Notes under the pieces: model-generated
What the model was told of the DNA's origin: nothing
Databases searched by the model: none
What the model saw: the letters and a program-made list of their open reading frames with translations, nothing else
Translations under genes and position numbers: made by a program
Shown here: one piece after another, positions 18,191 to 40,517 of the stretch
Numbering within the stretch: position 1 is the stretch's first letter
Layout: each line of letters starts with the position of its first letter
Source of the DNA: Gallionella sp.
GTDB taxonomy: Bacteria; Pseudomonadota; Gammaproteobacteria; Burkholderiales; Gallionellaceae
DNA length: 64,000 nt
Direction of reading: 5' to 3'
Assembly (NCBI GenBank): GCA_030653355.1
Contig: JAURZN010000095.1
Span: 34,899 to 98,898, forward strand

Positions 18191-19234
18191 ATGATGTCGA
18201 AAATTTCTTGTGTTGATCTATTCTGTGGCGCGGGGGGCCTGACGCACGGATTCGTACTAGAAGGACTGCCCGTCGTAGCCGGCATCGACATGGATCCGGC
18301 ATGCCGTTTTCCTTATGAGACAAACAACCAAGCTCAATTCATTGAGCGTGACATCAGCACAGTCACCGAATCTGAATTATTAGCCATCTTTGGTGACGCG
18401 GACATAAAAGTCCTCGCTGGCTGTGCGCCATGTCAACCCTTCTCTACCTACGCTCATCGATATTCTCTCGACGGAGATGGCAAATGGGGGCTGCTATATG
18501 AGTTCGCTAGGCTTGCGAAGGGTACCAGACCTGACGTAATCACCATGGAGAATGTCCCAACCGTAGCGAAGCATGCAGTCTTTCACGACTTTGTGGATAC
18601 GCTCGAAAAACTTGGCTATCACGTATGGTATGACGTTGTGAATAGCTCTCGGTATGGTGTACCTCAAGCTCGGCGACGCATGGTATTACTGGCCTCTCTT
18701 TATGGAAAAATCGAAATCATCCCGCCTACACGCGAAAAACCCAAAACGGTTCGGGAGGCTATAGGTCGACTAAATCCGCTGAGTGCAGGCGAGGCAGCTC
18801 CCCGTGACAAGCTACATGCCTCATCAACCTTGACTGACATAAATCTCCAGCGTATCCGAGTCTCAAAACCTGGCGGCACATGGCGAGACTGGCCTGAACA
18901 TCTCGTCGCCGAATGTCATCGTAGCGAAAGTGGGCGTACCTATCCAAGTGTTTATGGCCGTATGGAATGGGACAAGCCAGCCCCGACCATGACGACACAG
19001 TGCTTCGGATTCGGCAATGGACGTTTCGGCCACCCGGAACAAGACCGTGCTATTTCGTTGCGCGAGGCTGCAATCCTTCAGAGCTTTCCGCGCGATTACG
19101 CTTTCATCCCAGAAGGTGTTGAAGTGAGCTTCACCACCTTGGGGCGCCTCATCGGCAATGCCGTTCCTGTAGATCTAGGACGCGCTATTGCAAAGAGTAT
19201 CAACTCACATCTTTCATCGGTAAAAGATCGTTGA
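18191..19234 (+). CDS. DNA (cytosine-5-)-methyltransferase
   Basis: VDLFCGAGGLTHGF (motif I), GCAPCQPFS (motif IV), TMENVP (motif VI), RYGVPQARRR (motif VIII), GNAVPVDLGRAI (motif X). Confidence 0.95.
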   Translation: MMSKISCVDLFCGAGGLTHGFVLEGLPVVAGIDMDPACRFPYETNNQAQFIERDISTVTESELLAIFGDADIKVLAGCAPCQPFSTYAHRYSLDGDGKWGLLYEFARLAKGTRPDVITMENVPTVAKHAVFHDFVDTLEKLGYHVWYDVVNSSRYGVPQARRRMVLLASLYGKIEIIPPTREKPKTVREAIGRLNPLSAGEAAPRDKLHASSTLTDINLQRIRVSKPGGTWRDWPEHLVAECHRSESGRTYPSVYGRMEWDKPAPTMTTQCFGFGNGRFGHPEQDRAISLREAAILQSFPRDYAFIPEGVEVSFTTLGRLIGNAVPVDLGRAIAKSINSHLSSVKDR

Positions 19235-19716
19235 GTCACATGGCGAGGGCTATCTTGATGTCGCGCATAGAACCCTCGTCACCCGAAGCCAGCCGACGTA
19301 TGGCCAAAGTTCGGCAGAAAGGAACAGGGTCTGAGCTAGCTTTTCGACGAGAACTATACCGAAACGGCTTGCGGTATCGAATCAACTTTTGTGTCATGAA
19401 AAAACCACGCAGAGTCGCGGATATTGCATTCCCTCGCCTCAAGATTGCTATATTCATTGATGGATGTTTCTGGCACGGTTGCCCGGAACATGCCACATGG
19501 CCGAAACAGAACGCCGAGTTTTGGCGAAATAAGATCGAAACGAATCGAGCGCGCGACATCGATACCGATGTGAGACTCGATGCGCTTGGCTGGAAGGTAG
19601 TTCGAATGTGGGAGCACGAATCACCAGTGGCTGCTGCAGAATCAATATCGGATCTGGTCGCAAAGACCAAGGTGGAATGCCTCAAATCGTCACCCAACTC
19701 GAATGAAAGAAATTGA
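19231..19716 (+). CDS. vsr: Very short patch repair endonuclease
   Basis: RMAKVRQKGTGSELAFRRELYRNGLRYRIN...VADIAFPRLKIAIFIDGCFWHGCPEHATWPKQN; 4-nt overlap with MTase. Confidence 0.95.
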   Translation: MSHMARAILMSRIEPSSPEASRRMAKVRQKGTGSELAFRRELYRNGLRYRINFCVMKKPRRVADIAFPRLKIAIFIDGCFWHGCPEHATWPKQNAEFWRNKIETNRARDIDTDVRLDALGWKVVRMWEHESPVAAAESISDLVAKTKVECLKSSPNSNERN

Positions 19717-22700
19717 CTGAGGATATGATCGGACGCATGGAAATCTCAAACACTGGAATCTGCGAGTCCTACCGTGCTCGGCCTGAACCTGGTCAGTTGG
19801 TAGAAGTGCGTCGCCGCCAGTGGGTCGTCGCCGACGTAACTTCATCCAAGCTTGAATCGAATGCCGCTCCTCAGCATAATGTTTCATTATCGTCTATCGA
19901 CGAGGATGGCCTCGGCGAGGAGCTGGAGGTCATTTGGGAGATAGAGCCGGGCGCGCAGGTCATCGAGCGTGCAGGTCTGCCTTCGATCACCGGACAGGAT
20001 GACTCAGACACCCTCGAAGCGTTTCTCGATGCAGTGCGCTGGGGCGCTGCAACCAATGCAGATAGGGGTTTCCTCCAAGCGCCATTCCGCAGTGGCGTCA
20101 GCATCGAGGATTTCCAACTCGACCCACTGGTTCGAGCCATCGACATGGCTCGCGTCAATCTGCTCATCGCTGACGACGTTGGCTTGGGCAAGACCATCGA
20201 GGCCGGACTCGTCATCCAAGAGATGTTGTTGCGGCACCGTGCCCGCACCGTCCTGATCGTCTGCCCCGCATCGCTGCAAGAGAAGTGGCGCGTGGAGATG
20301 CTGGAAAAGTTTGGCCTCGATTTCAGGGTTGTCGACACGGGCTACATCAAGCAGTTGCGCCGAGAGCGAGGCATCCACGCCAACCCCTGGACTTCGCATC
20401 CGCGCCTGATCGCATCCATGGACTGGGTCAAAAGCGGTGAAGGCTTGCGCGCCATGCGCGACGTTCTGCCTGCGCACACCAGCTATCCACGCAAATTCGA
20501 CATGCTCGTCGTCGACGAAGCACACAACATCGCCCCCGCTGCCGGTGTGAACTACGCGCTGGAGAGCCAGCGCACGCGCTTCATTCGTTCGATCAGTCCG
20601 CACTTCCAGCATCGGCTATTCCTCACGGCCACACCGCACAACGGCTACACCGAATCCTTTACTTCTCTGCTGGAGTTGCTGGACGACCAGCGTTTCGCCC
20701 GAAACATCCTTCCCGATGAAAAGCAGTTGAGTCAGGTGATGATCCGCCGCCTCAAAAGCGACCTGGTAGATGCCGAAGGCAAGCCGCTCTATGCACAGCG
20801 CAAGTTGCAAGCGCTGCTGGCCTCGTATTCCCCACAAGAGCGCGCCATTCACCAAAAGCTGAACGACTACTGCGCGAGCCGCGAGCAGGATGCCGAAAAG
20901 GTCGGCAATACGTTCGGCACGTCGTTCGTCAACCAGTTGCTCAAGAAGCGGCTCTTTTCTTCTCCCGCCGCTTTCGCATCCACCCTTGAGAAGCACATTG
21001 CCAGTCTGGCCAATGGCAGCCAACGCAAGGACAAGGATGCAATGACCGACCGCATTTTGCGCAAAGCCATCCTGCGGGTAGATGAAGATTACGCCAACGA
21101 GCAGGAGGTCGAAAACGCCCAGTCCGAGGCCGTAGAAGAAGCCTCACGTCGCGCGCAACCGCTGACAGCAGACCAACAACAAATGCTGAACGACCTGCGG
21201 TCGTGGGCTCAGACGGCCAAAAACCAGGTCGACGCCAAAGCCAAGGCGATCCTCGGCTGGCTCACAACCAATCTCAAGACCGACGGTCAGTGGAATGATC
21301 GCCGGGTCATCTTGTTCACCGAATATCGCACCACTCACCAGTGGATGCACGAGATTCTCGCCAGCCACGATTTCGCTGGCGATCGACTGGCCACCCTTCA
21401 TGGCAGCATGCCGCAGGATGAGCGCGAGAAGATCAAAGCAGCCTTCCAGACTTCACCCAAAGATTCAGCAGTCCGCATCCTGCTGGCCACCGATGCCGCA
21501 TCCGAAGGTATCGACTTGCAGAACCACTGTAACTGCCTCATCCATCTGGAGATACCTTACAACCCCAATGTGATGGAGCAGCGCAATGGCCGTATCGACC
21601 GGCACGGTCAGCGCCAGAAGGAAGTGTTGATCTGGCACCCCGTCGATGGCGGCGAACAGGGCAAAGCAACCATTGGCGGCCACGGTGACGACATCATCCG
21701 TGCACTGCGCAAACTCGAATCCATGCGTGCGGACATGGGCAGCGTCAACCCGGTCATCGCGCCACAAATGTCGGGGCTGATCGAAGGCTCACTCAAAGAC
21801 CTCGACACCCGCTTGGCTGAAGCCAAAATCGCCAAGGCCAGACGCTTTGTGCGCGCCGAGCGCGAACTGAAAGATCGAGTCGCCAAGCTGCACGAACGGC
21901 TCCTCACCACGCAGCAAGATTTCCACCTCACACCAGAGCATATCCTCATGGCGGTCAAGACAGGCCTCGCGTTGGCAGGCCGCCCCCCGCTCGAGCCTTT
22001 TACCTTGGCTGATGCTCCGGCGGGGAGCGTATTCAAGATGCCCGCGCTGTCGGGCTCGTGGGCGCGTTGCCTCGAAGGGCTGCGCCACCCCCACACACTG
22101 CAAATTCGGCCCATCACCTTCGATCATGCCGTCGCCACGGGGCGTGACGACGTAGTGCTGGTTCACCTCAACCATCGACTGGTGCAGATGTGTCTGCGCT
22201 TGCTGCGCGCCGAGGTCTGGGCACAAGACGATGTGAAGAAGTTGCATCGCGTCACGGTGCGTTCGGTGCCGGACGCACTGATCGACGGGCCTGCCGTAGT
22301 CGTCATCTCGCGGCTGGTCGTCACTGGCGGAAACCATCATCGCCTCCATGAAGAGCTGACGGTGGCAGGAGGCTATCTGGGGGATAAATCCTTCCGTCGA
22401 GAAGAAGGCGTCACCAAAGTCCAGCAATGGCTGGATCAGGCCAAGCCACTTACTGCCGCAGATTCGCTGTTCGATGCCATCCGTGTACGTTTCGACCGTG
22501 CTCAAAGCGCTATTTTGCAGTCGGTCGACGCCCGTTCAAAAGACAGGCTCAAGTTCCTGACCAACACCCTTCAATCCCGCAAGCAGCAGGAAGTGGCCGA
22601 CATTGGCACCGTACTTGATGAACTTGAAAAAGCCATTCAAGCCGAATTGAGAAAAGATCAGCAACCGGCGCAGCTTTCCCTGTTCTCGGAAGACGAACGA

Positions 22701-22874
22701 ACACAGCTCAGGCGCGACACCGCCGCACTTGAAGCCCGCTTGGCCCGCATTCCGGGTGAGCGCGAACAAGAGGCTCAAGCCATCGAAACCCGCTATGCAC
22801 AACTCAATGATCGCACCTTCCCGGTTGCTGTCATTTTCATCATTCCTGCATCTCTGTCGAGGGTAGTAAAATGA
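19713..22874 (+). CDS. drmD: SNF2-like helicase, DrmD-like (DISARM class 1)
   Basis: LLIADDVGLGKTIEAGL (Walker A), VVDEAHN (DEAH), LFLTATPHNGY, ATDAASEGIDLQNHCNCLIHLEIPYNPNVMEQRNGRIDRHGQ; gene context with drmMI/A/B/C. Confidence 0.88.
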   Translation: MTEDMIGRMEISNTGICESYRARPEPGQLVEVRRRQWVVADVTSSKLESNAAPQHNVSLSSIDEDGLGEELEVIWEIEPGAQVIERAGLPSITGQDDSDTLEAFLDAVRWGAATNADRGFLQAPFRSGVSIEDFQLDPLVRAIDMARVNLLIADDVGLGKTIEAGLVIQEMLLRHRARTVLIVCPASLQEKWRVEMLEKFGLDFRVVDTGYIKQLRRERGIHANPWTSHPRLIASMDWVKSGEGLRAMRDVLPAHTSYPRKFDMLVVDEAHNIAPAAGVNYALESQRTRFIRSISPHFQHRLFLTATPHNGYTESFTSLLELLDDQRFARNILPDEKQLSQVMIRRLKSDLVDAEGKPLYAQRKLQALLASYSPQERAIHQKLNDYCASREQDAEKVGNTFGTSFVNQLLKKRLFSSPAAFASTLEKHIASLANGSQRKDKDAMTDRILRKAILRVDEDYANEQEVENAQSEAVEEASRRAQPLTADQQQMLNDLRSWAQTAKNQVDAKAKAILGWLTTNLKTDGQWNDRRVILFTEYRTTHQWMHEILASHDFAGDRLATLHGSMPQDEREKIKAAFQTSPKDSAVRILLATDAASEGIDLQNHCNCLIHLEIPYNPNVMEQRNGRIDRHGQRQKEVLIWHPVDGGEQGKATIGGHGDDIIRALRKLESMRADMGSVNPVIAPQMSGLIEGSLKDLDTRLAEAKIAKARRFVRAERELKDRVAKLHERLLTTQQDFHLTPEHILMAVKTGLALAGRPPLEPFTLADAPAGSVFKMPALSGSWARCLEGLRHPHTLQIRPITFDHAVATGRDDVVLVHLNHRLVQMCLRLLRAEVWAQDDVKKLHRVTVRSVPDALIDGPAVVVISRLVVTGGNHHRLHEELTVAGGYLGDKSFRREEGVTKVQQWLDQAKPLTAADSLFDAIRVRFDRAQSAILQSVDARSKDRLKFLTNTLQSRKQQEVADIGTVLDELEKAIQAELRKDQQPAQLSLFSEDERTQLRRDTAALEARLARIPGEREQEAQAIETRYAQLNDRTFPVAVIFIIPASLSRVVK

Positions 22875-23503
22875 TGACTTGGCAGGAATACCAAGAAGCC
22901 GTCGCCGTGCTCTATGAGCAAACCGATGGATTCGGAAATGTCAGCAGGAATGTCATGGTGCCGGACAAGATTACCGGTCAGCCACGGCAAATTGACGTGC
23001 TGATCGAAATCAAGGCCAAGGGACACGCCTTAAGGATGATCGTCGATGCCAAGTTCCATGCCGTCCCCATTGATGTGAGGGATGTCGAATCAGTTCTTGC
23101 GCTCGCAGATGCAGTTGGCGCAAATAAAGCCATCGTCGTCGCGGCGAATGGCTGGACTGAGCCTGCCAAGAAAAAAGCAGAACATGTCGGATGCTCTCTC
23201 GAACTGCTCTCAGTCGAAGAGGCCTTGGATCTGATCGTTCCAGACAAATGGAAGATGTGCCCTTCCTGCGGTGTAGATTGCATCGTGCTTGATCAAGAAG
23301 GGGCGGTAACGTTCGAAGGAGGTTCTTGGTTCTGGTGGCTTGCCGGTCAGTGTCGCGGATGTAAAAACGCGCGCATCCACTGCCAAGACTGCGGAGTGAA
23401 GGCGTATATTGATCTCGGTGAATCAATGGTCTGCGGATGCGGGCACCGATGGTCTAGCGCCCACGAAGGTATCAAGATTGCATTTTTCGAGGAGCAATCT
23501 TAA
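22871..23503 (+). CDS. Mrr-like restriction endonuclease with C-terminal Zn-ribbons
   Basis: RQIDVLIEIKAKGHALRMIVDAKFHAVPIDVRDV (PD-(D/E)xK-like core), then CPSCGVDC..CRGCKNARIHCQDCG..CGCGHRW. Confidence 0.78.
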   Translation: MMTWQEYQEAVAVLYEQTDGFGNVSRNVMVPDKITGQPRQIDVLIEIKAKGHALRMIVDAKFHAVPIDVRDVESVLALADAVGANKAIVVAANGWTEPAKKKAEHVGCSLELLSVEEALDLIVPDKWKMCPSCGVDCIVLDQEGAVTFEGGSWFWWLAGQCRGCKNARIHCQDCGVKAYIDLGESMVCGCGHRWSSAHEGIKIAFFEEQS

Positions 23504-26500
23504 TGATGACGCCGATTCAACACCACGATTGGCTGTCGCTGATCGAGATCTCCGGCCCTTTCCTCGCAGTTCCCGTTCTGAAGGAAGCCTTTCCACAAGG
23601 GCTGGAAGAACTTGATGCCACCAAGCGCAAACGTCTGCGCCAAGCCTACGAGGAGTGGCGCGAAGCGCTGGAGCTGGAAGACGCCCAGTTCGCCGAGTTG
23701 CACGTAGCATGGATCGACGAAGTGCTGTCGCGAGGACTTGAACTCGACGAAGACGGCAGAGGCGATGTTCTCAAGCGCGCTGACTGGTGCGCAGCCAACC
23801 TCCAAGCCAGCTTGCCAGAACACGGCGTGACGCTGTCGCCTAGTCTTGCGGTGATTGATGAGCAATGCGCCAACAAGCCACTGCTGCTGATCCAAACCTA
23901 TCCGCAGGATGTCGACCTCGGTACAACCCTGAAGCTAGACGGCTGGGCCGCCACACCCGCCGATCGCATGGTGCAGTTGTGTCGTTCATTGGGTTGTCGC
24001 CTCGGGCTGTTGACCAATGGCGAGCGCTGGATGCTGGTGGATGCCCCGGTGGGTGCCGTTACCACCTTTGCCAGTTGGTATGCCCGCATCTGGAGCCAAG
24101 AGCCCATCACTCTGCAAGCCTTCGTGCACTTGCTCGGCATTCGTCGTTTCTTTGTCGACGAATCCGAACAATTGCCCGCGCTGTTCGATCGCTCACTGAA
24201 ATTTCAGGACGAAGTTACCGATGCCCTTGGCGAGCAGGTACGCCGCGCCGTCGAAGTATTGATCCAGTCGCTCGACAAGGCCGATCAGGACCGCAATCGT
24301 GAGCTCCTGCACGACGTCAAGGAACCTGAGCTCTATGAGGCCGCGCTTACGGTGATGATGCGCTTGGTATTCCTTCTCTCCGCCGAGGAGCGTGGTCTGC
24401 TCCTGATGGGTGACGAGCGCTACGAAGCCAACTACGCGCTCTCGACCTTGCGCATGCAGTTGCGCAAAGAATCAGAGGAGATCCTCGAGCGCCGCTGGGA
24501 TGCTTGGTCGCGTTTGCTGGCGATCTTCCGCGCAGTGTTTGGTGGTATCGAGCATGAGAACTTGCGCCTGCCCGCACTGGGCGGATCGCTATTCGATCCG
24601 GATCGCTTCCCTTTCCTCGAAGGCCGAGCCAAGGGCTCCAACTGGCGCACCGATGCAGCCAAGCCGCTGCCTATCGACAACCGTACCGTGCTGTTGTTGC
24701 TGCAGGCCATTCAGCAATTTCAGGGCCGCACGCTGTCTTACCGCGCACTGGATGTCGAACAGATCGGCTACGTGTATGAAGGCTTGCTCGAACGCACCGT
24801 CAAGCGCACCGATGAGGTCACGCTAGAACTGGATGCCACCAAGAGCGCCAAGACTCCATGGATCAAGCTGGCCGAGCTAGATTCGGCGCGCTTGGATGGT
24901 ACCGCGCGACTGGCCGAGTTGCTGCAAGAGCGCTCCGGCAGCTCTGCCAGCCGAGTGCGCAATGATCTGGCCAAACCCGTCGATGACACCTTGGCCGATC
25001 GCCTACTGACAGCTTGCCAAGGCGACACCAAGCTCCGCGACCGTGTCAAACCATATGCCCATCTGCTGCGCACCGACCCATGGGGCTATCCGCTGGTGTA
25101 TCCCGCCGGAGCCTTCATCGTCACCACCGGATCCGACCGACGCGAAACCGGTACCCACTACACCCCGAAATCGCTGACCGAATCGATCGTCGTCGAGACC
25201 CTCACGCCAGTGGCCTATGTCGGCCCGGCAGAGGGAACGCCGCGCGAGCAATGGGCGCTGAAGTCTCCTTCTGAACTGCTTGACCTCAAAATCTGCGACC
25301 CGGCCATGGGCTCGGGTGCCTTCTTGGTTCAAGCCTGCCGCTGGCTGGCTGATCGCGTCCTCGAGTCATGGTCACAGGTTGAGGTTTTGGGTAAAACCGT
25401 GAGTGTGGATGGCGAGATTCTGGAAGCAGGAGCGGCCAAGGAACCCCTACCCCGCGACAGCGAAGCACGCACGGTAATCGCACGCCGCCTCATCGCCGAA
25501 CGTTGTCTGTACGGAGTCGACTTGAACCCGCTGGCCGTCGAACTCGCCAAGCTGTCCATCTGGCTGGTGACACTGGCAAAGGATCGCCCGTTTGGCTTCC
25601 TCGACCACAACCTGCGCTGCGGTGACAGTTTGTTGGGTATCCATCGACTGGATCAGCTCACTGAATTGAGCATGACGCCCGACGGCAAAGGGCAGCAACG
25701 CTTGTTTGGCAAGAACATCGAAAAAGCCGTTATTGAGGCAATTGAGCTACGCCAGAGTTTGCGCGACATGCCGATTCGCGACATCCATGATGTTGAGGCC
25801 ATGGCGCAATTGGACGCAAATGCGCGACAGAAGCTAGAAATACCTGAACTCATCGCTGACGCGCTGGTTGGAGAGGTGCTTGCGACAGTTGGAAATGACT
25901 ACGCTTTGAAAAATGGACTGTCATCACTTGCTATTCATGCTGGGCAAGCAATCAGCGGCGATGAAGCAGCATTTAGAACAATAGCTCTCCGAGCAAACAC
26001 AACACTTGCTTTTGATTTACCCGTAGGCAAGCCAATACGGAAGCCGTTTCATTGGCCGCTGGAGTTCCCCGAAGTATTGTCAGGCTTCAATTGTGGGTTT
26101 GATGCTTTTATTGGCAATCCGCCATTTGCTTTTGGAAAAAACGTAAGCACAAGTTGCGGCACTTCCTACAACTCGTTCCTGGTTTTAACCAATCCTGCTG
26201 CCACAAAAAACGTCGATCTTTGCGCCCATTTTTTTCATTGTGCTTTTGTTCTCCTTAACAGCGATGGAGCGCAGGGCATGCTTGCGACATCCTCAATCGC
26301 CGAGGGTGAGACCAGACTCGCCGCCCTAGAAAATCTTATTTCTGCCGGAGGGACTATATATTCAGCCACATCAAAGTCAAAGTGGCCTGGCGCTGCGAAT
26401 GTTTTCATATGTCGCGTGTCACTTTCGAAGCGCAAATGGCAGGGGGTATTCACTCTTGACGGGAAATACGTCAAGGGTATCTCATCTTTTCTGACTCCAG

Positions 26501-27600
26501 ACACCAACTGGCAACCAGTGTCCCTGTTTGAAAATCAAGGTATCGCATTTTATGGAGCCATCCCCAATGGTGATGGATTCCTCATTTCACGAGCTGAAGC
26601 TGAGACTTTATTAACCAAACACCCAGATCACCACAAGGTTCTTTATCCATTTCTAACAGGAAAAGATCTCAACTCCAATCCCACTCAATCTGCGAGCCGC
26701 TTTGCGATTAATTTTTGGGACTGGAATGAAAATGTCGCCTCAAAATTCAAAGATGCTTTCCAAATTGTGAGTGACCGGGTAAAGCCATATCGAGAGACTC
26801 TAAAAAACACAAAGCCGAAGCTTGCTACGAAATGGTGGATTTACGAGGCCAATCCAAAAGGATTGCATGATGCTATTGGAAGGGGTGAACACTTTCATGG
26901 TGGAGCAACGAAAACTACGCTAAAGGAGGTTCTGGTTATCGCGAGAGTGAGCAGTACCAATGCATTCACGTTCGTGAACCCGAATCAAGTTTTTGACTGC
27001 GCACTGATCGTTGTCGCGTCTGATGATTATGGAATTTTTGCGGTCCTTCAGAGCAGCATTCATTTTGCATTTGCATGGCAGCACGGAGGGAAAATGAAAT
27101 CCGACCTCCGCTACAGTCCTACGATGTGTCTGGCAACATTTCCTTTCCCGAAGCCTGACAATTATGAGCAGCTACGATTAATTGGGCACTCATTTAATGA
27201 ACGACGGCAAAGCATTCTCACAAAGCGTGAATGGGGTTTAACTCGCCTATCCAATTCACTTCATGATCCAGATTGCAGTGAGTCTGATATTCAGAAGTTA
27301 CGCTCCTGCCTAGCAGATTTGGACATAAATGTATTGGAAGCCTATGGCTGGTTGGACATTAAACTAAATCACGACTTCCACCATGTGGATTATCTTCCTG
27401 CGGGTCGGAATCTTCGTTACACGATATCCGAGCCTGCACGCATTGAAATTCTTCGTCGCCTTGCCGATTTGAACCTCCAGCGGCATAAAGAAGAGGCTAT
27501 TCAAAGCTCTCTTGCAAGAAATTCAGATAAAAGTGCTCCGAAACCAAGGCGTACCTCGTCAGTGCTTATCAGCGACCTATTTGGCGGAGACAACGCATGA
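23503..27600 (+). CDS. drmMI: N6-adenine DNA methyltransferase, DrmMI-like (DISARM class 1)
   Basis: DPAMGSGAFLVQACRWLADRV (SAM motif I) and IGNPPFAFG (NPPF motif IV); 1365 aa with N-terminal extension; syntenic with drmD/drmA. Confidence 0.88.
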   Translation: MMTPIQHHDWLSLIEISGPFLAVPVLKEAFPQGLEELDATKRKRLRQAYEEWREALELEDAQFAELHVAWIDEVLSRGLELDEDGRGDVLKRADWCAANLQASLPEHGVTLSPSLAVIDEQCANKPLLLIQTYPQDVDLGTTLKLDGWAATPADRMVQLCRSLGCRLGLLTNGERWMLVDAPVGAVTTFASWYARIWSQEPITLQAFVHLLGIRRFFVDESEQLPALFDRSLKFQDEVTDALGEQVRRAVEVLIQSLDKADQDRNRELLHDVKEPELYEAALTVMMRLVFLLSAEERGLLLMGDERYEANYALSTLRMQLRKESEEILERRWDAWSRLLAIFRAVFGGIEHENLRLPALGGSLFDPDRFPFLEGRAKGSNWRTDAAKPLPIDNRTVLLLLQAIQQFQGRTLSYRALDVEQIGYVYEGLLERTVKRTDEVTLELDATKSAKTPWIKLAELDSARLDGTARLAELLQERSGSSASRVRNDLAKPVDDTLADRLLTACQGDTKLRDRVKPYAHLLRTDPWGYPLVYPAGAFIVTTGSDRRETGTHYTPKSLTESIVVETLTPVAYVGPAEGTPREQWALKSPSELLDLKICDPAMGSGAFLVQACRWLADRVLESWSQVEVLGKTVSVDGEILEAGAAKEPLPRDSEARTVIARRLIAERCLYGVDLNPLAVELAKLSIWLVTLAKDRPFGFLDHNLRCGDSLLGIHRLDQLTELSMTPDGKGQQRLFGKNIEKAVIEAIELRQSLRDMPIRDIHDVEAMAQLDANARQKLEIPELIADALVGEVLATVGNDYALKNGLSSLAIHAGQAISGDEAAFRTIALRANTTLAFDLPVGKPIRKPFHWPLEFPEVLSGFNCGFDAFIGNPPFAFGKNVSTSCGTSYNSFLVLTNPAATKNVDLCAHFFHCAFVLLNSDGAQGMLATSSIAEGETRLAALENLISAGGTIYSATSKSKWPGAANVFICRVSLSKRKWQGVFTLDGKYVKGISSFLTPDTNWQPVSLFENQGIAFYGAIPNGDGFLISRAEAETLLTKHPDHHKVLYPFLTGKDLNSNPTQSASRFAINFWDWNENVASKFKDAFQIVSDRVKPYRETLKNTKPKLATKWWIYEANPKGLHDAIGRGEHFHGGATKTTLKEVLVIARVSSTNAFTFVNPNQVFDCALIVVASDDYGIFAVLQSSIHFAFAWQHGGKMKSDLRYSPTMCLATFPFPKPDNYEQLRLIGHSFNERRQSILTKREWGLTRLSNSLHDPDCSESDIQKLRSCLADLDINVLEAYGWLDIKLNHDFHHVDYLPAGRNLRYTISEPARIEILRRLADLNLQRHKEEAIQSSLARNSDKSAPKPRRTSSVLISDLFGGDNA

Positions 27601-27713
27601 TCGCACTACAGCAGGCCAGACAGGTGCCAGAGTTCGCACAGGAAGCCGTCTCACAATTCTTGAAAGAGTTTGAAATGATCAAGGCAGGAAGTATCGGAGC
27701 TTTTGATGACTAG
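27597..27713 (+). CDS. 38-aa micro-ORF overlapping the drmMI stop (ATGA)
   Basis: ATG at 27597 overlaps TGA 27598-27600; reads MIALQQARQVPEFAQEAVSQFLKEFEMIKAGSIGAFDD then TAG. Below the size threshold of the ORF track. Confidence 0.4.
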   Translation: MIALQQARQVPEFAQEAVSQFLKEFEMIKAGSIGAFDD

Positions 27714-27722
27714 GAAAACCAC

Positions 27723-29678
27723 ATGACTGACACATACAAAATGACCGTGGATCTGAACGTACTCGATCATCTCGGAATCAACCTCTACAGCAACATCGCA
27801 GCCGTCCTGACCGAGGCCGTGGCGAATGCTTGGGATGCGGATGCAGAAATCGTTGAAATCAAGATTGATCCGGACAATAACTGGATCGAAATCACCGACG
27901 ACGGCATCGGTATGTCGGTTGACGACATGAACGGCAAATATCTTCGAGTCGGTTATAGACGGCGCGACGAAGATGCCCAGAACGGCAGAACGACTGCCAA
28001 GGGGCGCCCCGTCATGGGCCGCAAGGGACTTGGCAAACTCTCCCTATTCTCGATTGCGAACATCATCAATGTGCAGTCGGCGAAAGATGGTCAGGCTCAC
28101 GGACTGAAGATGACCGTCGATGGCATCCACGAATCAGTCCAAAAGAAAGAACCTTTCTACAGCCCAGAATCTCTGCCACCTGCACAGGTAACTGTATCGA
28201 AAGGTACACAGATCGTCCTCTCTGATATCAAGCGTCAGCGCTTGGGACGTGGTGTGCTCGCACTGCGCAAACGTCTGGCCCGGCGCTTTTCAGTCATTGG
28301 AGAAACCCACGGGTTCAAAATCAATATTGACGGGCAACCTGTCACATCAGCAGATCGAGGTGATCTCCCGATGGTTCAGTTTCTTTGGAATTTTGAGGAC
28401 TACGAACCTGATTTGACATCGGCCACTCAACTCTTGGAGCAGGAGTCTCTACCCAATCGTCTTGAAGCTTGGGAGGCTGACTGGAAAGTCAGTGGCTGGA
28501 TCGGCACGGCAAGGTTTCCAAAACAATTGGATAGTGAAGAAGCTGGCAATCTAAACGGCATCGTCGTATTCGCACGCGGACGATTATTCCACGAAAACAT
28601 CCTCGACAAGCTCAACGATGGTAGGCTCTATACGAAATATCTCACTGGACAGATTGAGGCGAATTTCCTCGATGCTGACGATGCACCGGATATTGCGACC
28701 AGCGATCGTCAACGCGTTCAGGAGGATGATCCACGATACGGTCAGCTCATTGCATTTCTGAGATCATGCCTAGTACAAGTCGAGAAACGATGGAGCGAAT
28801 GGCGCAAGAAACACGAAGTCGAGAAAGCCAAGGAAACCTCACCCGCACTGGCCGAGTGGCTCGACTCACTACCCGTCGGTTACAAAAAAAGTGCCGAGAC
28901 GCTTATCTCTAAATTGAGCGCGCTGCCCGTCGATGACGAAGAGGATCGCAAGCTGATGTACCGGCATGGCATCCTCGCATTCGAACGGATGAAGCTCCGT
29001 GGCTCAACCGATGAGTTGGCCACGAGCGTCGAGAGTGTGGAAAAACTACTCACCATCCTTGCCGACCGAGACTCGCTCGAAGCATCACTCTATCGCGACA
29101 TCGTCAAGTCTCGTCTCGAAGCCATCAAAAACTTTCAAGCCATTGTCGACGAAGAAGCACAAGAACGGGTATTGCAGAAATATCTGTTCAATCACCTCTG
29201 GCTGCTGGACCCCGCTTGGGAGCGAGCTACGGACAGTGCGGTCATGGAAACACGGCTTGCCGAGGAAGGTATATTGACAGAGGATATGACTGAGAAGGAG
29301 CGCCTCGGTCGGGTGGATATCGCCTATCGCACGAATGCCGGCAAACATATCATCGTCGAATTGAAGAAGGTCGAGCGCAAGATGAAGTTGCTCGAACTGC
29401 AGGAACAAGGTCAAACCTATGTCGATAAATTAAGAAAGATTTTGCTCAAACAAAACGACGCCACGCCCAATATCGAGGTGGTCTTCATCCTCGGAAAAAT
29501 CGTCGACGAAGAAGCATCGAATCCTGATCGGTTGAAAGCCTCGATGGAAGCAATTTCCCCGGGTAGTCGCATCGTGCATTACGACACGCTCATTCGAGGA
29601 GCCCAAGAGGCCTACTCGCAATATCTTGATAAGAGCAAACAACTCGACAAGCTGGAAAAGATCGTGGACAGGATTTGA
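27723..29678 (+). CDS. GHKL (HSP90/MORC-like) ATPase with C-terminal PD-(D/E)xK-like segment
   Basis: EAVANAWDADAEIVEIKID..WIEITDDGIGMSVDDMNGKYLRVGYRRR...GRKGLGKLSLFSIA (GHKL N, G1 and G2 boxes); C-term GRVDIAYRTNAGKHIIVELKKVERK. Confidence 0.85.
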   Translation: MTDTYKMTVDLNVLDHLGINLYSNIAAVLTEAVANAWDADAEIVEIKIDPDNNWIEITDDGIGMSVDDMNGKYLRVGYRRRDEDAQNGRTTAKGRPVMGRKGLGKLSLFSIANIINVQSAKDGQAHGLKMTVDGIHESVQKKEPFYSPESLPPAQVTVSKGTQIVLSDIKRQRLGRGVLALRKRLARRFSVIGETHGFKINIDGQPVTSADRGDLPMVQFLWNFEDYEPDLTSATQLLEQESLPNRLEAWEADWKVSGWIGTARFPKQLDSEEAGNLNGIVVFARGRLFHENILDKLNDGRLYTKYLTGQIEANFLDADDAPDIATSDRQRVQEDDPRYGQLIAFLRSCLVQVEKRWSEWRKKHEVEKAKETSPALAEWLDSLPVGYKKSAETLISKLSALPVDDEEDRKLMYRHGILAFERMKLRGSTDELATSVESVEKLLTILADRDSLEASLYRDIVKSRLEAIKNFQAIVDEEAQERVLQKYLFNHLWLLDPAWERATDSAVMETRLAEEGILTEDMTEKERLGRVDIAYRTNAGKHIIVELKKVERKMKLLELQEQGQTYVDKLRKILLKQNDATPNIEVVFILGKIVDEEASNPDRLKASMEAISPGSRIVHYDTLIRGAQEAYSQYLDKSKQLDKLEKIVDRI

Positions 29679-29687: not shown

Positions 29688-32600
29688 ATGGCCAGAACAA
29701 CTAATGCTTGGATTGCCATCGACAACGGCAGTGATCCCAGACTTGCTCGCTACACATTGACGCTGAATGGTCAGAAATCACTGTATCAGGCGATCGAAGA
29801 TGATGACTGGGTTCTAGTCGTCAATCCTCAAACCGAGATTACACGGGTCGGACGTGTCCTGCGGATTCGCTCCGACCTTGAAACCACTACGATCTACTTT
29901 GACCGCATGTTGTTGGTTGATCCGGCAGTTTCGATTGAACTTACCTCACTCACCCCACCATCCTCCGGCAGCGTTGGTCGCATTCAATGGACGGATTTTC
30001 TTGAGTCGCTCCCCAAGGCATTGCACAAGACCATCGCCGAAATACCGACCATCAAGGATCAGGCCTATATCCGCGAACTGTTGCAACTGGCAGTGATGGA
30101 CGACCTGCTCGGCCCAGCTGGAGGCCCCCATGAGCGCATTGTCGATATGGGTGTGCGCGACCGCTACTTGGTTGGCAAACTAGCCCCGCGTGAAGCCGCA
30201 CAGGGCGGCATTGAAGGGCTGGACGGGCCATTGACCAATGACGATGCCGAAGAGCCAGCCGAGGCCAAGGCTCCCGGACGGCACGAACCCGGTGCAGAGT
30301 TTGGAACGGCCACCGGGCGCGTGGAGCCGGAATCGGATTCATCTGACGAGATTGATGCCGCCAGCAACCAGTCGCTGGTGCCAAGCAGCCTTGGCATGAC
30401 CTTCTGCGTGGATGGTGACGCCGACCGGATTGAGATCGAAGCGCGCTGGGGCCGATATGAGCGCAGTGACGAGCACGAGATATTCCGCACCCGAAAAAAT
30501 AAGGAAACTGGGGCGGAAGTGCAGACCAAGGCCAAAGTCTGGCAGCGTATTCCTTGTGGCGGCAAAATCGTGTTACCACTAACTGAAGGTGTGATTCCGC
30601 ATCAGGCACCTGATAGTGAGTTCCCTGAGGTTCGGGTACAGGGTTCCATTCGTGCCAAGAATGCCAATGGCGATCGGCTGGTCACGTTGTTCCTAGTGAA
30701 TGCACAGGAAGAGCCGGATACCAACCGCGATACGGCGTGGGTGTTCCAGCCCGAGCTGATCGTTCGTTCTGAGCAGGATGCCGCTAAGCGTGCCATCTTC
30801 CGGCGCAGGCCTGTGCTGGATGCGGACGGCATGGACCCCGAACGCGAAGCGCTGGAGATGATCTACCGCAACCGCGTCGAGTTCGCCGTGGGCCATGGCG
30901 TTGCCGTCCATGCCGAAACTGCAGATGACGTGACGCTGGCGACCGAAGTCCACACCACGGTGATGCCGCAGTACGAGGTGCAGGTGACAGAGACGCCCGG
31001 GCTCGATCCCTCCGATCGCCCGGCGATGCGCGAAATGGTCAGCAGCGGCTTGCTCGATATGCAGCGGCTAGCGACTTTGGAAATCGACCCGCTGGTCGAT
31101 GCTTTGAGCATGCTGACCAAGGACTACGCTGCCTGGATCAATGAGCAGCGTGCTCGAGTCGGGGCCGAAGTGACTGGCTACGACACCCAGTCGCAACAAG
31201 CGATGGATCGCTGCCAGGAGATCCACACACGCCTGCAGCAGGGTATCGACACGCTGAAAAGCAATGAGAAAGCGCTGGCTGCGTTCCGGTTCGCCAACCG
31301 AGCGATGGCCACGCAACGCGTGCGCAGCCAATACGCGCTCGCCATGCGCCGGGGCGAGGATGTCACCATCGACAAGTTCGATGTGCTGAAGAACCGCAGC
31401 TGGCGTCCATTCCAGTTGGCGTTTCTGCTGCTCTCGATTCCGTCGCTGGCAGATCCGAGCCACCCGGATCGCGTTGAGCCTGTAGAGGCATACGCCGATC
31501 TGCTGTGGTTTCCCACTGGCGGCGGCAAGACCGAGGCCTACTTGGGTGTAGCAGCCTTCACCATGGCCATTCGACGCATGCAGGGTAATCTTGGCGGATA
31601 CGACAGTTCACGCGGTTTGGCCGTGATCATGCGTTACACACTTCGCTTGCTGACGTTGCAGCAGTTCCAGCGTGCCACAGCGTTGATTTGTGCAATGGAG
31701 GTGTTGCGACGTGAGGCACTCGACAAAGGCGATAAATCCCTCGGCACGGAACCTTTCACCATCGGCCTCTGGGTTGGCAACAAGGTCACACCGGGTACGA
31801 CCGAGGACAGCCACCGCGCCATCGAGGATGTGCGCAACCCCGGTAAATACAACGCAGGGGCGGCGTCGCCCGCACAGCTCACCAGTTGCCCGTGGTGCGG
31901 CTCGGAAGTGGCCCCCGGACGAGACGTGGAGGTCGACAAAGGCTCTGGCCGCACCTTCGTCTACTGTGGTGACAAGAAAGGCCGCTGTGATTTTTCCAAG
32001 GGCAAGTCCAGCAAGCAGCCGCATCCGGGGATTCCAGTGCTGGTCGTGGATGAAGAGATCTACCACCGCCCACCTACGATGATGATCGCCACCGTGGACA
32101 AGTTCGCCATGATGGCGTGGCGCGGACAGGTGCGCACGCTGTTTGGTCGCGTGGGACAGGAATGCGAGCGCCACGGCCTGCTCTGGCAAGGTGCCGATTG
32201 CAACGGCAATCACCAAGCAGGCAAAGGACTGCCGTCTTCCAAGGTGAAAATCGTCAACCCGATTCGCCCGCCGGATCTGATCATTCAGGATGAATTTCAC
32301 CTGATCAGTGGGCCGTTGGGAACCATGGTGGGTTTGTATGAAACCGCCGTCGATGAGTTGTGTGGCTGGACACTAGATGGCAAGACGGTCAAGCCGAAAA
32401 TCATCGCCTCCACGGCGACGGTGCGCAAAGCCAAAGAGCAAGTGAACAACGTCTTCATGCGCCGAGTTTCGGTATTCCCGCCGCATGGCTTGGACGTAGA
32501 GGACAACTTCTTCTCGGTGCAACGGCCAATCGCAGACAAACCGGGACGGCGTTACCTCGGGGTTTGCTCACCCGGCAGTTCACGCCCCGCAATGCTGATT

Positions 32601-33671
32601 CGTGTCTATACGGCCTTCCTGACAGCGGCGCAGGAGTTGTTCGACCACTTTGGTGAGCCTGCTGATCCGTACATGACCATGGTCGGCTACTTCAATTCCC
32701 TGCGTGAATTGGGCGGAATGAAGCGATTGGCCGAGGATGACGTGCAAACGCGTTCCTACCGCGTGCAGATGAGCATGGTCGAGCGGCCCGCACTTGCACA
32801 ACGCAGCATCAGCAACATTCGAGAACTTACATCGCGGGTATCGAGCCAGGATATTCCCAAGTACCTCGACAACCTAGAAGTGAAATTCAAGTCTGAGTTC
32901 GATACCGCAACCGGAAAATATGTGACCCGCTGGCAGGAAGGTGACACGCGCGCCATCGATGTGGTGCTGGCGACCAACATGCTATCCGTGGGCGTCGACG
33001 TGAATCGGCTCGGCCTGATGGCAGTGAACGGCCAACCCAAGGGGACAGCTGAATATATTCAAGCCACTAGTCGCGTTGGGCGTTCCTTCCCAGGTTTGGT
33101 CTGCACGGTACTGACATGGGCCAGACCGCGCGATCTGTCGCATTACGAAACCTTCGAACATTACCACGCCACGTTCTACAAACACGTAGAGGCGCAATCA
33201 GTAACGCCATTCTCTCCACGAGCAATGGATCGTGGGTTGACGGGCGCAATGCTGAGTTTGATGCGGCTTGAAAACGATGCCTTCAGTCCGAACGAAGGTG
33301 CTGGGCAACTGAGCACATCCAACCAAGCCGAAATCATGGATGCCATCAAGGTATTGGCGACTCGCGCGGGCAATGTCGCTGAAGACAACTCGCGCAAACA
33401 GTTGGCTGAGACTGAATTGAAAGAACGTGCCGACGAATGGGCGAAAGAAGTCAGCAAAGGCGGACGGATATTGGCGTATGAGAAACGCGGCCCCGAAAAA
33501 GACAAGACCGTCGCATTGATCAAGTCGCCGGGGCTTCAAGCTTGGGACAACTGGACCGTTCCGATGTCGATGCGGGAAGTCGAGCCTGGAGTGCGCCTGA
33601 TTATGAATACGAGCCATATCACGGACGATCACGATTGGAAGCCTCGCCCCGAAACGAAGGATGAGGATTGA
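29688..33671 (+). CDS. drmA: DrmA-like helicase (DISARM)
   Basis: ADLLWFPTGGGKTEAYLG (Walker A), LIIQDEFHLISGPLGT (DExH-like), ATNMLSVGVDVNRLGLMAVNGQPKGTAEYIQATSRVGRS (motifs V/VI). Confidence 0.9.
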   Translation: MARTTNAWIAIDNGSDPRLARYTLTLNGQKSLYQAIEDDDWVLVVNPQTEITRVGRVLRIRSDLETTTIYFDRMLLVDPAVSIELTSLTPPSSGSVGRIQWTDFLESLPKALHKTIAEIPTIKDQAYIRELLQLAVMDDLLGPAGGPHERIVDMGVRDRYLVGKLAPREAAQGGIEGLDGPLTNDDAEEPAEAKAPGRHEPGAEFGTATGRVEPESDSSDEIDAASNQSLVPSSLGMTFCVDGDADRIEIEARWGRYERSDEHEIFRTRKNKETGAEVQTKAKVWQRIPCGGKIVLPLTEGVIPHQAPDSEFPEVRVQGSIRAKNANGDRLVTLFLVNAQEEPDTNRDTAWVFQPELIVRSEQDAAKRAIFRRRPVLDADGMDPEREALEMIYRNRVEFAVGHGVAVHAETADDVTLATEVHTTVMPQYEVQVTETPGLDPSDRPAMREMVSSGLLDMQRLATLEIDPLVDALSMLTKDYAAWINEQRARVGAEVTGYDTQSQQAMDRCQEIHTRLQQGIDTLKSNEKALAAFRFANRAMATQRVRSQYALAMRRGEDVTIDKFDVLKNRSWRPFQLAFLLLSIPSLADPSHPDRVEPVEAYADLLWFPTGGGKTEAYLGVAAFTMAIRRMQGNLGGYDSSRGLAVIMRYTLRLLTLQQFQRATALICAMEVLRREALDKGDKSLGTEPFTIGLWVGNKVTPGTTEDSHRAIEDVRNPGKYNAGAASPAQLTSCPWCGSEVAPGRDVEVDKGSGRTFVYCGDKKGRCDFSKGKSSKQPHPGIPVLVVDEEIYHRPPTMMIATVDKFAMMAWRGQVRTLFGRVGQECERHGLLWQGADCNGNHQAGKGLPSSKVKIVNPIRPPDLIIQDEFHLISGPLGTMVGLYETAVDELCGWTLDGKTVKPKIIASTATVRKAKEQVNNVFMRRVSVFPPHGLDVEDNFFSVQRPIADKPGRRYLGVCSPGSSRPAMLIRVYTAFLTAAQELFDHFGEPADPYMTMVGYFNSLRELGGMKRLAEDDVQTRSYRVQMSMVERPALAQRSISNIRELTSRVSSQDIPKYLDNLEVKFKSEFDTATGKYVTRWQEGDTRAIDVVLATNMLSVGVDVNRLGLMAVNGQPKGTAEYIQATSRVGRSFPGLVCTVLTWARPRDLSHYETFEHYHATFYKHVEAQSVTPFSPRAMDRGLTGAMLSLMRLENDAFSPNEGAGQLSTSNQAEIMDAIKVLATRAGNVAEDNSRKQLAETELKERADEWAKEVSKGGRILAYEKRGPEKDKTVALIKSPGLQAWDNWTVPMSMREVEPGVRLIMNTSHITDDHDWKPRPETKDED

Positions 33672-35533
33672 ACATGATCATAAATAATAAGACTCCAGTC
33701 GGAGAAGTACGCCCAAGCCAATTGCTCTGGACTTATGGTCCGGGCGCTTTAATTGATCTGCCAAGCCTATCCGTGGTGACGCTCGGCATCGACAGGTGGG
33801 AAAAAGACCGCTGCCAGCCGCTTCAAGAGGCGCGGCTGCTGGCTGCCGTCAGAAAGGTTTTGGGGGCGCAGGTCGAAAACCTGCGGATGCCGCCATTCCA
33901 GAAGAGTGAGCTCGTCGACGTCTGGTCAGCAGAGGCCAATATCGGTGTGCCCGTACGACCGTTTCCGCGCTGGATGCGCTGCGTGAAATGCGGCCTCCTG
34001 TCGCCCTTTGATGCTGGTCTGTTCGAAATCAAGGAGAACCGTTTCAGGCCGGAGAGAACCCGCTTTGTTCACAAAGGCTGCCGTGGCTCCAAAGGGGACC
34101 AGCCAGCCAAGGACGCAGATGCCGTCCCCGCACGTTTCCTGCTGGCCTGTCGCGATGGTCACCTCGACGATTTTCCCTGGCACTACTTCGTTCACGGCGG
34201 CAACAGTTCGTGCAAGGGAACGTTGCGTTTCTTCGAGAGCGGCGCGTCACTGCAAACAGAAAACCTGTGGGTAAAGTGTGATGCCTGTGGGGCGTCGAGA
34301 AGCATGGCCCATGCGTTTGGCAAGGCAGGCAAAGAAAATCTACCGGCTTGCCGGGGGCGCCACCCGCATCTGGATCACTTCGATAACGAATGTGACGAGG
34401 AAGCTCGTGCAGTTTTGCTGGGCGCCACGAATAGCTGGTTCCCAATCACGCTCTCGGCGCTCGCGATTCCTCAGGCCAATGACCCACTCAGTCAACTGAT
34501 TCAGGATGGCTGGGAGTTCTTCGAAGAACTCGAATCCGAAGCCGAAGTATCGGTAACAGTAAAGACCTTGAAGAAGACTGGCGCACTGCCGGGAATCGAC
34601 AAATACCCTTCGCCTGCGATCTGGGCTGCCATCGAAGCACGCCGAACCGGTGGCGGACAAGATGTCGTAGGAGAAGCAGATATCAAGGGACCCGAATGGG
34701 ATGTGCTGACCGAGGCCAACCCGCCCACTGATTACCCCCATTTCATGAGCAAGAAGGTCGGCACGCCACCGGGGTTCGGCGGCCATATCAGTCGAGTCCT
34801 TCTCCTCGAGCGATTGCGTGAGGTGAATGCTCTGCTGGGCTTCACCCGGGTCGAAGCACCCGAAGAATCAGGCAATCCCGATGAGCGACCACAAATGGCC
34901 AATCTCTCTCGTAGTAAACCAGATTGGGTGCCAGCAAATCAGGTTCATGGCGAAGGGATCTTCGTCCAGTTTGATGAGGCGGCGCTCATCAAGTGGGAGG
35001 CCTTGGATGGTGTCAAGAAGGTCGATCAGATTCTCCGTGGTGGTCACAGGGGATGGCGCAATTCGCGTCATCTCGACCCGAATGAGGGCTACCCCGGAAT
35101 TCGGTATGCAATGTTGCACACGCTTTCTCATCTACTGATTCGCGAGCTGGCGCTGGAATGCGGATACAACGCTGCAAGCATTCGTGAGCGTATCTATGCC
35201 GACACATCGGGCGATACCCCACAGGCTGGCATCCTCATCTACACCGCAGCAGCAGATTCTGATGGCACGTTGGGAGGTCTCGTCGATCTTGGCAAGCCAG
35301 AGAATCTCGGTCGATTGCTAGAACAGGCACTGAACCGTTCGAAGATTTGCTCCTCGGACCCACTCTGCTCAGAGCATGATCCAGAAAAGGATCGCTCATT
35401 ACATGGGGCTGCTTGCCATGCATGCTCCCTAGTGGCGGAGACTTCGTGCGAGCGCGGCAATCGCTATCTGGATCGATCGCTGCTCGTACCAACACTCGAA
35501 CGCGCCGACGCAGCATTCTTCAGGGGCTTCTGA
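33668..35533 (+). CDS. drmB: DrmB-like DUF1998 protein (DISARM)
   Basis: LHTLSHLLIRELALECGYNAASIRERIY..., CHACSLVAETSCERGNRYLDRSLL; 4-nt overlap with drmA. Confidence 0.9.
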   Translation: MNMIINNKTPVGEVRPSQLLWTYGPGALIDLPSLSVVTLGIDRWEKDRCQPLQEARLLAAVRKVLGAQVENLRMPPFQKSELVDVWSAEANIGVPVRPFPRWMRCVKCGLLSPFDAGLFEIKENRFRPERTRFVHKGCRGSKGDQPAKDADAVPARFLLACRDGHLDDFPWHYFVHGGNSSCKGTLRFFESGASLQTENLWVKCDACGASRSMAHAFGKAGKENLPACRGRHPHLDHFDNECDEEARAVLLGATNSWFPITLSALAIPQANDPLSQLIQDGWEFFEELESEAEVSVTVKTLKKTGALPGIDKYPSPAIWAAIEARRTGGGQDVVGEADIKGPEWDVLTEANPPTDYPHFMSKKVGTPPGFGGHISRVLLLERLREVNALLGFTRVEAPEESGNPDERPQMANLSRSKPDWVPANQVHGEGIFVQFDEAALIKWEALDGVKKVDQILRGGHRGWRNSRHLDPNEGYPGIRYAMLHTLSHLLIRELALECGYNAASIRERIYADTSGDTPQAGILIYTAAADSDGTLGGLVDLGKPENLGRLLEQALNRSKICSSDPLCSEHDPEKDRSLHGAACHACSLVAETSCERGNRYLDRSLLVPTLERADAAFFRGF

Positions 35534-35534: not shown

Positions 35535-36296
35535 ATGGACAAGCTCTTGGATGCTGTTGCAGCCGTGGTCTGTCTGGTATCGCCTGAAAAGGTCCGAGCC
35601 ATCGCTGCCCGCGTTCGTCGAACCGAAGCCAACAAGGCGGCCAACGCACTGACGAACATGGTTGGGACGCCCATTGCCTCAGCGGTAGTCGAACAGCTCA
35701 TCGACGCATGGCGCAACACAACAGTCAGCTCAGATGAGGTTGCATCAATGCTTCTCGCGGCCAGTCATGTCTTCATAAAGGCATCCACCGAACAATCTAC
35801 CGAACTCGTATGGACAGGACCGACGACTCCGTCCGTCTCTGCTCGTCGAACCGAGCAGGCACTATTACAAGTAATCAATACGGCGAAATCGACCCTATTC
35901 ATCACAAGTTTCGTCGCCTACGACGTGTCGGGCATCGTAAAAGCTCTCAATGAGGCCAGCAACCGAGGTGTGAGCATCTCTATGCTCCTTGAGTCCTCAA
36001 TGGATCACGGCGGAAGTATCAACATCGATGTGATCGGAAAAATGAAGACACTGGTTCCACCAGCTAAACTCTTTGCCTGGCAAGATAAGACCGAACCATT
36101 TATTGATGGTCGGGTGCATGCAAAGGTCGCTGTTGCTGATGGCGCGGTGTGTTTCATCACGAGCGCGAATCTGACAGGCCACGCAATGGAGAAAAATATG
36201 GAAGCCGGAGTGCTCATCACCGGAGGGCACATCCCCAGATTGCTCGACCAGCATCTGTGTTCCTTGATAGACACGAAAGTGATCTCGCCAGTCTGA
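35535..36296 (+). CDS. drmC: DrmC-like phospholipase D-family protein (DISARM)
   Basis: HxKx4D motif in VHAKVAVADGAVCFITSANLTGHAMEKNMEAGVLI; immediately after drmB. Confidence 0.9.
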   Translation: MDKLLDAVAAVVCLVSPEKVRAIAARVRRTEANKAANALTNMVGTPIASAVVEQLIDAWRNTTVSSDEVASMLLAASHVFIKASTEQSTELVWTGPTTPSVSARRTEQALLQVINTAKSTLFITSFVAYDVSGIVKALNEASNRGVSISMLLESSMDHGGSINIDVIGKMKTLVPPAKLFAWQDKTEPFIDGRVHAKVAVADGAVCFITSANLTGHAMEKNMEAGVLITGGHIPRLLDQHLCSLIDTKVISPV

Positions 36297-36300: not shown

Positions 36301-37182
36301 TCACTGATCCAACGATGTCGTCTCGACGATAAGCTCGAACTGTTCCAACACTTCCGGCCGACGCAGTTTGATGAATCTGGCGACCGGCTTGTTGTCCAGC
36401 AACTTGGCCAGGTAACCTCTTGCCAAGACTAGGTTAAGTACATCCTCCGCATAGGTTTGCTCGACCAATTTGTATTGCCCCTGCAGATTTGACATTTCTC
36501 GCTCCATCCGCGCCATCTGCTCTTGCGTTACACCGGTCAGTTTCTGCGTCTTCTTGCCATCCACCAACATCTCGGCCGGTGTCGCCACGAGTAATGCTTC
36601 GGCATACATCACCGTGATGTTATTTGCCGAAACCATGAGCTCGACACACTCCACTTGACGAGTAGGTTTCATTTTTCGGATCACGCGCGATATTTCTGCA
36701 GAAAACTGCCGGTCCTTCAACAGTTCTGCCGCTTCAGGACAGATGCCTTCCAGCAAGTTCATTTTTTTGACGATATGACTGACGTCAACATTGAGTGCTT
36801 TGGCCAGACGCTCCATCGACAGCCCACGCTCAATGGCTCGGCGGATCATGAAATGTTCCTGAATGGTCGAGAGTCGGTTGATGCGGCTGTTGTAGGTATA
36901 GGCTTCATCATCGGTGGCAACCAGACACGGAGCTTCTTCGTAGCCCAATTCCTTGAGAACGATCATCCGCACATGGCCATCAAGCAGCAAATGTTGGCCG
37001 GAGGTTTTATTCGCCGCAGTGATAGATAAAGGCTCAATCAACCCGACATCCGCGATGGAGGCACGGATCTGCTTGAACTTAGTTGAGCCGATAAGGCCTG
37101 TGGGGGTTTTGCGCGACGGCAAAATCAACTCCATAGATACAGAAATCGTTTCCGGCACGAAGCCGAGCGATACCTTACTCAT
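36301..37182 (-). CDS. ParB/RepB-like partition protein (RepB C-terminal-type)
   Basis: ParB N-terminal-like SIADVGLIEPLSITAANKTSGQHLLLDGHVRMIVLKELG, HTH region LAKALNVDVSHIVKKMNLL; 4-nt overlap with next gene. Confidence 0.8.
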   Translation of the reverse strand: MSKVSLGFVPETISVSMELILPSRKTPTGLIGSTKFKQIRASIADVGLIEPLSITAANKTSGQHLLLDGHVRMIVLKELGYEEAPCLVATDDEAYTYNSRINRLSTIQEHFMIRRAIERGLSMERLAKALNVDVSHIVKKMNLLEGICPEAAELLKDRQFSAEISRVIRKMKPTRQVECVELMVSANNITVMYAEALLVATPAEMLVDGKKTQKLTGVTQEQMARMEREMSNLQGQYKLVEQTYAEDVLNLVLARGYLAKLLDNKPVARFIKLRRPEVLEQFELIVETTSLDQ

Positions 37183-39688: not shown

Positions 39689-39804
39689 TCGTCGTTGCTG
39701 CCATCAAGGCAAGCAGGAAGGTGGAAATTTGAATTCCATGCAGGAGGTGCAGAGAGCGCGCATGGGCAATATGGTATGCGGCTCTGTCCCGCTTTCCGAA
39801 CACG

Positions 39805-40260: not shown

Positions 40261-40418
40261 AGGCTACTCCATACAAAATATGGAGCCTGCACGATGATTC
40301 TATGCGCCTGATAAGTTATGGGAAAATATAACCTCGGCTTTATGCCAGAAAACAGAAACAACAAGCAGTTCCGCAATTTCGCTCATCACGAAATTAGCTC
40401 TGACTGTAGAATAGAAAA

Positions 40419-40438
40419 AGCCCACTCGAAAGTGGGCT
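40419..40438. terminator. Stem-loop agcccact-cgaa-agtgggct with T-run on the minus strand
   Basis: Perfect 8-bp stem; minus-strand readout GGGCTTTTTCTATTC resembles a Rho-independent terminator. Confidence 0.5.
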
Positions 40439-40517
40439 TCTCTAAAACTGTCGTCCGTCCTCGGGGGGAGGCTTGCGCCAACAACTCCCGTGGCTAGTGC
40501 GGCAACTATAAGGCTTA

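Follow-up and report, generated by a model that had tools for sequence, protein, structure and literature searches.

Based on the analysis reported here, we suggest that the GHKL ATPase-nuclease gene lying between DrmMI and DrmA in the window (the whole 64,000-nucleotide stretch of DNA analysed) encodes the restriction endonuclease, here called R, of a type II restriction-modification (R-M) system of the HgiDII/BbrUII kind, with GTCGAC as its most likely target. In this reading, to which we assign a probability of roughly 0.87, the cognate methyltransferase (M) and a Vsr endonuclease head the operon, while genes of class 1 DISARM separate M from R and continue after R. Because the cognate M and Vsr are found upstream in the same operon, the locus is best described as a type II R-M system split by class 1 DISARM genes. 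R itself is an ordinary protein of a known kind, and its conserved interleaving with DISARM is a modest new arrangement.

Domain architecture of R

The R reading frame starts with ATG and contains no internal stop codon. The predicted protein comprises a GHKL ATPase with an S5-like middle domain (residues ~1-345), a helical linker (~345-470) and a PD-(D/E)xK nuclease (~470-651). The three GHKL boxes that the sequence-only reading of this gene had pointed out in the N-terminus are intact, i.e. EAVANAWDAD (N35, D38), DDGIGM (D59, G61, G63) and GRKGLGKLS (G99-K105), and this region matches Pfam HATPase_c_3 (E 3.7e-16). In an AlphaFold model of full-length R (pLDDT 78.5), the N-terminal and middle domains match Hsp90/TRAP1; a direct phmmer search of R against the PDB gave weak GHKL matches only.

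The same reading had placed a PD-(D/E)xK-like module with a D...ExK arrangement at the C-terminus and had likened it to Shedu nucleases, and both residue conservation and predicted fold bear this out. D532, E546 and K548, which come from the GRVDIAYRTNAGKHIIVELKK stretch (D...ExK), are invariant across the 37-row alignment used for folding, as are E481 and E509. In an alignment of 73 relatives they are nearly so: D532 is Asp in all 69 relatives having that column, position 546 holds Glu in 68 of 70 relatives and position 548 Lys in 69 of 70, and the departures at positions 546 and 548 are accounted for by Halobaculum (Asp at 546) and by one protein that has an unrelated C-terminus in place of the nuclease (Val at 546). 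An AlphaFold model of residues 441-651, based on 37 sequences (pLDDT 80, pTM 0.76), has D532 in one strand and the ExK motif ending the next, followed by a helix and a strand, which is the topology of the PD-(D/E)xK core. PD-(D/E)xK nucleases lead the PDB matches of this model, with E. coli SduA (8ps5, E 1.2e-4) at the top and EndoMS (5gke), B. cereus Shedu (8ti9), R.BspD6I and EcoO109I among the further matches.

Family identity and selection

By its sequence, R is an intact, full-length member of the BbrUII/HgiDII family of type II restriction enzymes. It matches the NCBIfam model NF050001, "BbrUII/HgiDII family restriction enzyme", with 864.7 bits over R residues 5-651 and profile positions 1-659, far above the curated cut-off of 550 bits, and is the sole match above this cut-off in the genome. 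The PADLOC model for type II restriction enzymes, REase_II, is matched with an E value of 6.5e-114. The fusion of a GHKL ATPase to a nuclease is not new, because the same build was described in 2008 by Iyer, Abhiman and Aravind as paraMORC3, with GHKL and S5 domains and a C-terminal restriction endonuclease-fold domain carrying E-D-ExK, encoded near genes for cytosine methylases, Vsr and superfamily II helicases (PMC2292703), and because a homologue in Escherichia phage PhiR44_1, 38% identical to R and located beside a Dcm gene, is already annotated ParaMORC3. R shares each of these features: the HATPase_c_3 match and the Hsp90/TRAP1-like fold correspond to the GHKL and S5-like domains, the invariant E481, D532, E546 and K548 in the predicted fold correspond to E-D-ExK, the neighbourhoods are alike, and we see no defining difference between R and paraMORC3. 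HgiDII/BbrUII systems likewise combine the same GHKL plus PD-(D/E)xK build with the same type of C5 methylase, often together with Vsr.

Shedu (SduA, DUF4263) provides the nearest solved fold to the nuclease domain of R. However, Shedu is a single-gene system without a methylase, whereas R carries a GHKL domain at its N-terminus and is partnered by a cognate methylase, both in its operon and across its family. The SduA profile matches R weakly (E 7e-4) and over residues 562-630 only, and a Pfam search of R for DUF4263 gave no match. Thus, we retain the likeness to Shedu as a resemblance of fold only. A GHKL protein akin to the N-terminus of R in a further genome (loci L010 and L054, genome G046) has no nuclease but a C-terminus that looks TIR-like by eye, and it adjoins an M.HgiDII-like methylase.

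The pattern of substitutions indicates that R is under strong purifying selection and is kept as a working enzyme. In the comparison of R from Acidovorax facilis (locus L005) with R from an IMG/VR contig (L056), for which synonymous sites are unsaturated, dN/dS is ~0.04 for the whole protein and 0.07 for the nuclease part, and in the same contrast it is 0.04 for M. Over the unsaturated comparisons, dN/dS of R is ~0.02-0.07; in most comparisons that involve the window R, synonymous sites are saturated and dN is ~0.1.

Partner methyltransferase and predicted target

M and Vsr are found at the head of the operon, 8.5 kb upstream of R. By contrast, R and M are adjacent in stand-alone HgiDII/BbrUII systems. 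In a scan of IMG/VR with R, we identified 55 near-full-length relatives (L056-L110), many of which are near-identical to one another; a homologue of M with 48-58% identity to the window M lies beside R in 54 of them, and the sole exception, L056, is a DISARM-embedded copy with its M ~10 kb upstream. Stand-alone M-R pairs with no DISARM nearby are also found on Rhizobium, Halobaculum and Burkholderia plasmids. Thus, a cognate methylase of the M.HgiDII type is encoded together with R, as is the rule in its family.

The target recognition domain (TRD) of M supports the pairing. Its core is 63-83% identical to that of the M partners of stand-alone R proteins from the close family, and 57% identical for a more distant pair from Deinococcus, whereas the catalytic part of M is only 43-56% identical to the same partner methylases; a TRD core that is more alike than the catalytic part is what a shared target predicts. 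The C5 methylase of another DISARM locus (G539) shares 31% identity with the window M in the TRD core. M.HgiDII has been reported to methylate GTCGAC, and M.BbrUII to be a related 5mC enzyme (PMC5867850). From the family naming and the TRD conservation, and with the sequences of M.HgiDII and M.BbrUII themselves outside the comparison, GTCGAC is the likely target of this R-M system. In 345 kb of its own genome, GTCGAC occurs 40 times against 82 expected (0.49). This under-representation ranks 12th of 64 palindromes, which is not distinctive, and site avoidance was therefore dropped as a test of specificity.

The operon and its counterparts in other loci

The operon reads M-Vsr-DrmD-Mrr-DrmMI-R-DrmA-DrmB-DrmC (Table 1). 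The earlier placement of R inside a DISARM operon was correct: all five core genes of class 1 DISARM (DrmD-DrmMI-DrmA-DrmB-DrmC) are present in the same order and flank R. The window differs from class 1 DISARM by the C5 methylase and Vsr added in front, by Mrr after DrmD and by R between DrmMI and DrmA. Scans for promoters and terminators gave no more than shuffled sequences did.

Table 1. Genes of the composite operon and a downstream tRNA gene in the window
Feature	Position	Strand	Remarks
M, C5-cytosine methyltransferase, M.HgiDII type, predicted cognate of R	18191..19234	+	
Vsr mismatch-nicking endonuclease (repairs T:G from deaminated 5mC)	19231..19716	+	TIGR00632, 106 bits
DrmD, class 1 DISARM SNF2-like helicase	19713..22874	+	NF038317, 1416 bits
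Mrr_cat restriction endonuclease domain protein	22871..23503	+	
DrmMI-like MmeI/Eco57I-type adenine methylase	23503..27600	+	orthologues annotated MmeI in DISARM loci
38-aa KAP/PifA-like P-loop NTPase remnant	27597..27713	+	C-terminal tail, 57% to KAP of Denitrificimonas caeni (L007)
R, BbrUII/HgiDII-family (paraMORC3) restriction enzyme	27723..29678	+	651 aa
DrmA helicase	29688..33671	+	85-96% to Acidovorax, Nitrincola and Denitrificimonas; homologues annotated drmA
DrmB (DUF1998)	33668..35533	+	NF038324, 771 bits
DrmC, PLD-like nuclease	35535..36296	+	NF038319, 250 bits
tRNA-Leu	42726-42810		after the serine integrase

The order M, (Vsr), DrmD, (Mrr), DrmMI, KAP NTPase, R, DrmA recurs in Acidovorax facilis (L005), Nitrincola (L006), Denitrificimonas caeni (L007) and the IMG/VR contig L056, and ends with DrmB and DrmC where the record extends so far. 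The window R is 84-85% identical to R of these four loci. The Mrr_cat gene has a counterpart in the Acidovorax locus alone (89%) and is absent from those of Nitrincola and Denitrificimonas. An intact KAP gene, PifA-like by PADLOC, precedes R in all four; in the window, the 123 bp that separate DrmMI from R still encode the last KAP residues (a 38-aa ORF with 57% identity), and the KAP gene has therefore been deleted there. The best-related non-embedded R that we found is 64% identical to the window R and is not followed by DISARM (L008).

R is not a core gene of class 1 DISARM. Five related DISARM loci (L147, Microvirga, G107, G539 and G483) have no R in the slot between DrmMI and DrmA, and R is therefore an accessory of DISARM. 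In L147 the slot is empty. On Microvirga terrae pR24_2, it holds a different GHKL ATPase and a Methyltransf_35 protein (L140:9489-11903), neither of which has a PADLOC match; the front of that DISARM operon retains Vsr and an M whose TRD core is similar. DrmB has a single match in IMG/VR, in a locus with an empty DrmMI-DrmA gap, and no match among the sequenced phages searched; a search of E. coli genomes at the DNA level found no relative. Plasmid p96k of Deinococcus sp. AJ005 resembles the window in that an HgiDII-type R, M and Vsr accompany class 1 DISARM; there, however, the R-M genes and Vsr stand beside DISARM, while in the window the two sets are interleaved. From this distribution of genes, the simplest history would be that R entered, once, a DISARM lineage headed by M and Vsr, and that the combined operon then spread. 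The suggestion that the gene is an additional effector or sensor outside canonical DISARM stands in part: R does not belong to canonical DISARM, but it belongs to a known restriction enzyme family and has its cognate methylase in the same operon, and the idea of a new DISARM effector or sensor is not supported.

Proposed function and alternative readings

As a working R-M system, M would methylate the sites of the host and thereby confer self-protection, Vsr would correct C-to-T mutations arising from this methylation, and R would cut unmethylated incoming DNA at the predicted GTCGAC site. R would act as a dimeric, Hsp90/MutL-like ATP clamp that ends in a Shedu-like PD-(D/E)xK nuclease and, by analogy with MutL, Hsp90 and MORC proteins, the GHKL clamp would govern DNA engagement or dimerisation of the nuclease. 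DISARM would then form a parallel second layer. We infer the ATP-driven clamp, the dimer, the GTCGAC specificity and the independence from DISARM.

The conserved interleaving in five loci could reflect a real coupling of R-M to DISARM. If so, R may have been recruited as a part of DISARM such that the nine genes form one machine, in which cuts by R provide DNA ends for DrmAB to load on, or the mark set by M is the self signal of DISARM; we consider this unlikely, although it is the likeliest of the alternatives. It would fit the M-DrmD-DrmMI-R-DrmA-DrmB-DrmC order, which is conserved in different genera, the purifying selection on R and the different GHKL ATPase that occupies the slot in Microvirga. 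However, R and M stand on their own in many loci with no DISARM nearby, the five DISARM loci described above manage without R in the slot, and the five embedded copies of R look like a single clade that one insertion event explains. The ends made by R also bear on this question. A cut of the SalI type leaves an overhang of 4 nt. According to published work, 5' overhangs activate DrmAB, but DrmAB binds only minimally to those shorter than 7 nt, and a mix-and-match use of nucleases has been proposed for DISARM (PMC9142583). Because of this mismatch in length, the idea that ends made by R are fed directly to DrmAB is attractive but weak. A bolder version, which we regard as speculative and improbable, sees the GTCGAC-type R-M system merged with class 1 DISARM into one co-regulated, prophage-borne machine, with R making the first cut, DrmAB loading processed ends, M, Vsr and DrmMI together marking self, and the DrmMI-DrmA slot being exchangeable for GHKL or KAP ATPase modules.

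Two further readings dispense with a functional R-M pair. R might be a stand-alone effector of the Shedu type, in which a GHKL sensor replaces the usual N-terminus and no methylase is needed. SduA/Shedu is indeed the best fold match of the nuclease, and the SduA profile is weakly matched; by contrast, the Pfam DUF4263 match is absent, a C5 methylase is present at nearly every locus of the family and the family is named for type II restriction enzymes, all of which makes this reading very improbable. The reduction of the neighbouring KAP gene to a 38-aa remnant in the same slot would suit a decayed passenger, i.e. a functionless R-M remnant stranded in a DISARM operon. However, the R reading frame is intact with all catalytic residues kept, M is intact as well and the low dN/dS of R points to a maintained enzyme, and we give decay hardly any credence. 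Thus, a functional HgiDII/BbrUII-type R-M system interleaved with DISARM is the reading that we prefer. Because one R-M/DISARM order is shared by five loci in different genera, cooperation between the two systems is directly testable.

Prophage setting and neighbouring genes

The composite operon appears, from its gene neighbourhood, to be prophage cargo. Genes for a head protease, major head protein, adaptor, tape measure, tail proteins and endolysin are found just upstream (window 1-17223), with terminase and primase genes further left on the contig, and downstream (36301-42810) two RepB/ParB-like genes are followed by a large serine integrase gene (38078-39688, minus strand) and tRNA-Leu. 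One phage thus appears to carry ~18 kb of layered defence. DISARM has been reported in archaeal proviruses (PMC11705971). Among the ten flanking proteins sampled around the three isolate loci, no phage structural genes were found. The L056 contig (L169, L144, L056; IMGVR_UViG_3300043178_000066) represents a second prophage, in which the composite operon is located right behind the tail genes and the structural genes (head, tape measure) differ from those of the window.

Two other genes in this part of the window were recorded. An Abi_2-like (HEPN) abortive infection gene is located at 40518-41192, between the integrase and tRNA-Leu genes, and a 1860-aa ORF at 42967-48549 on the minus strand contains 336-nt direct repeats that are 61-86% alike, corresponding to a period of 112 residues in the protein.
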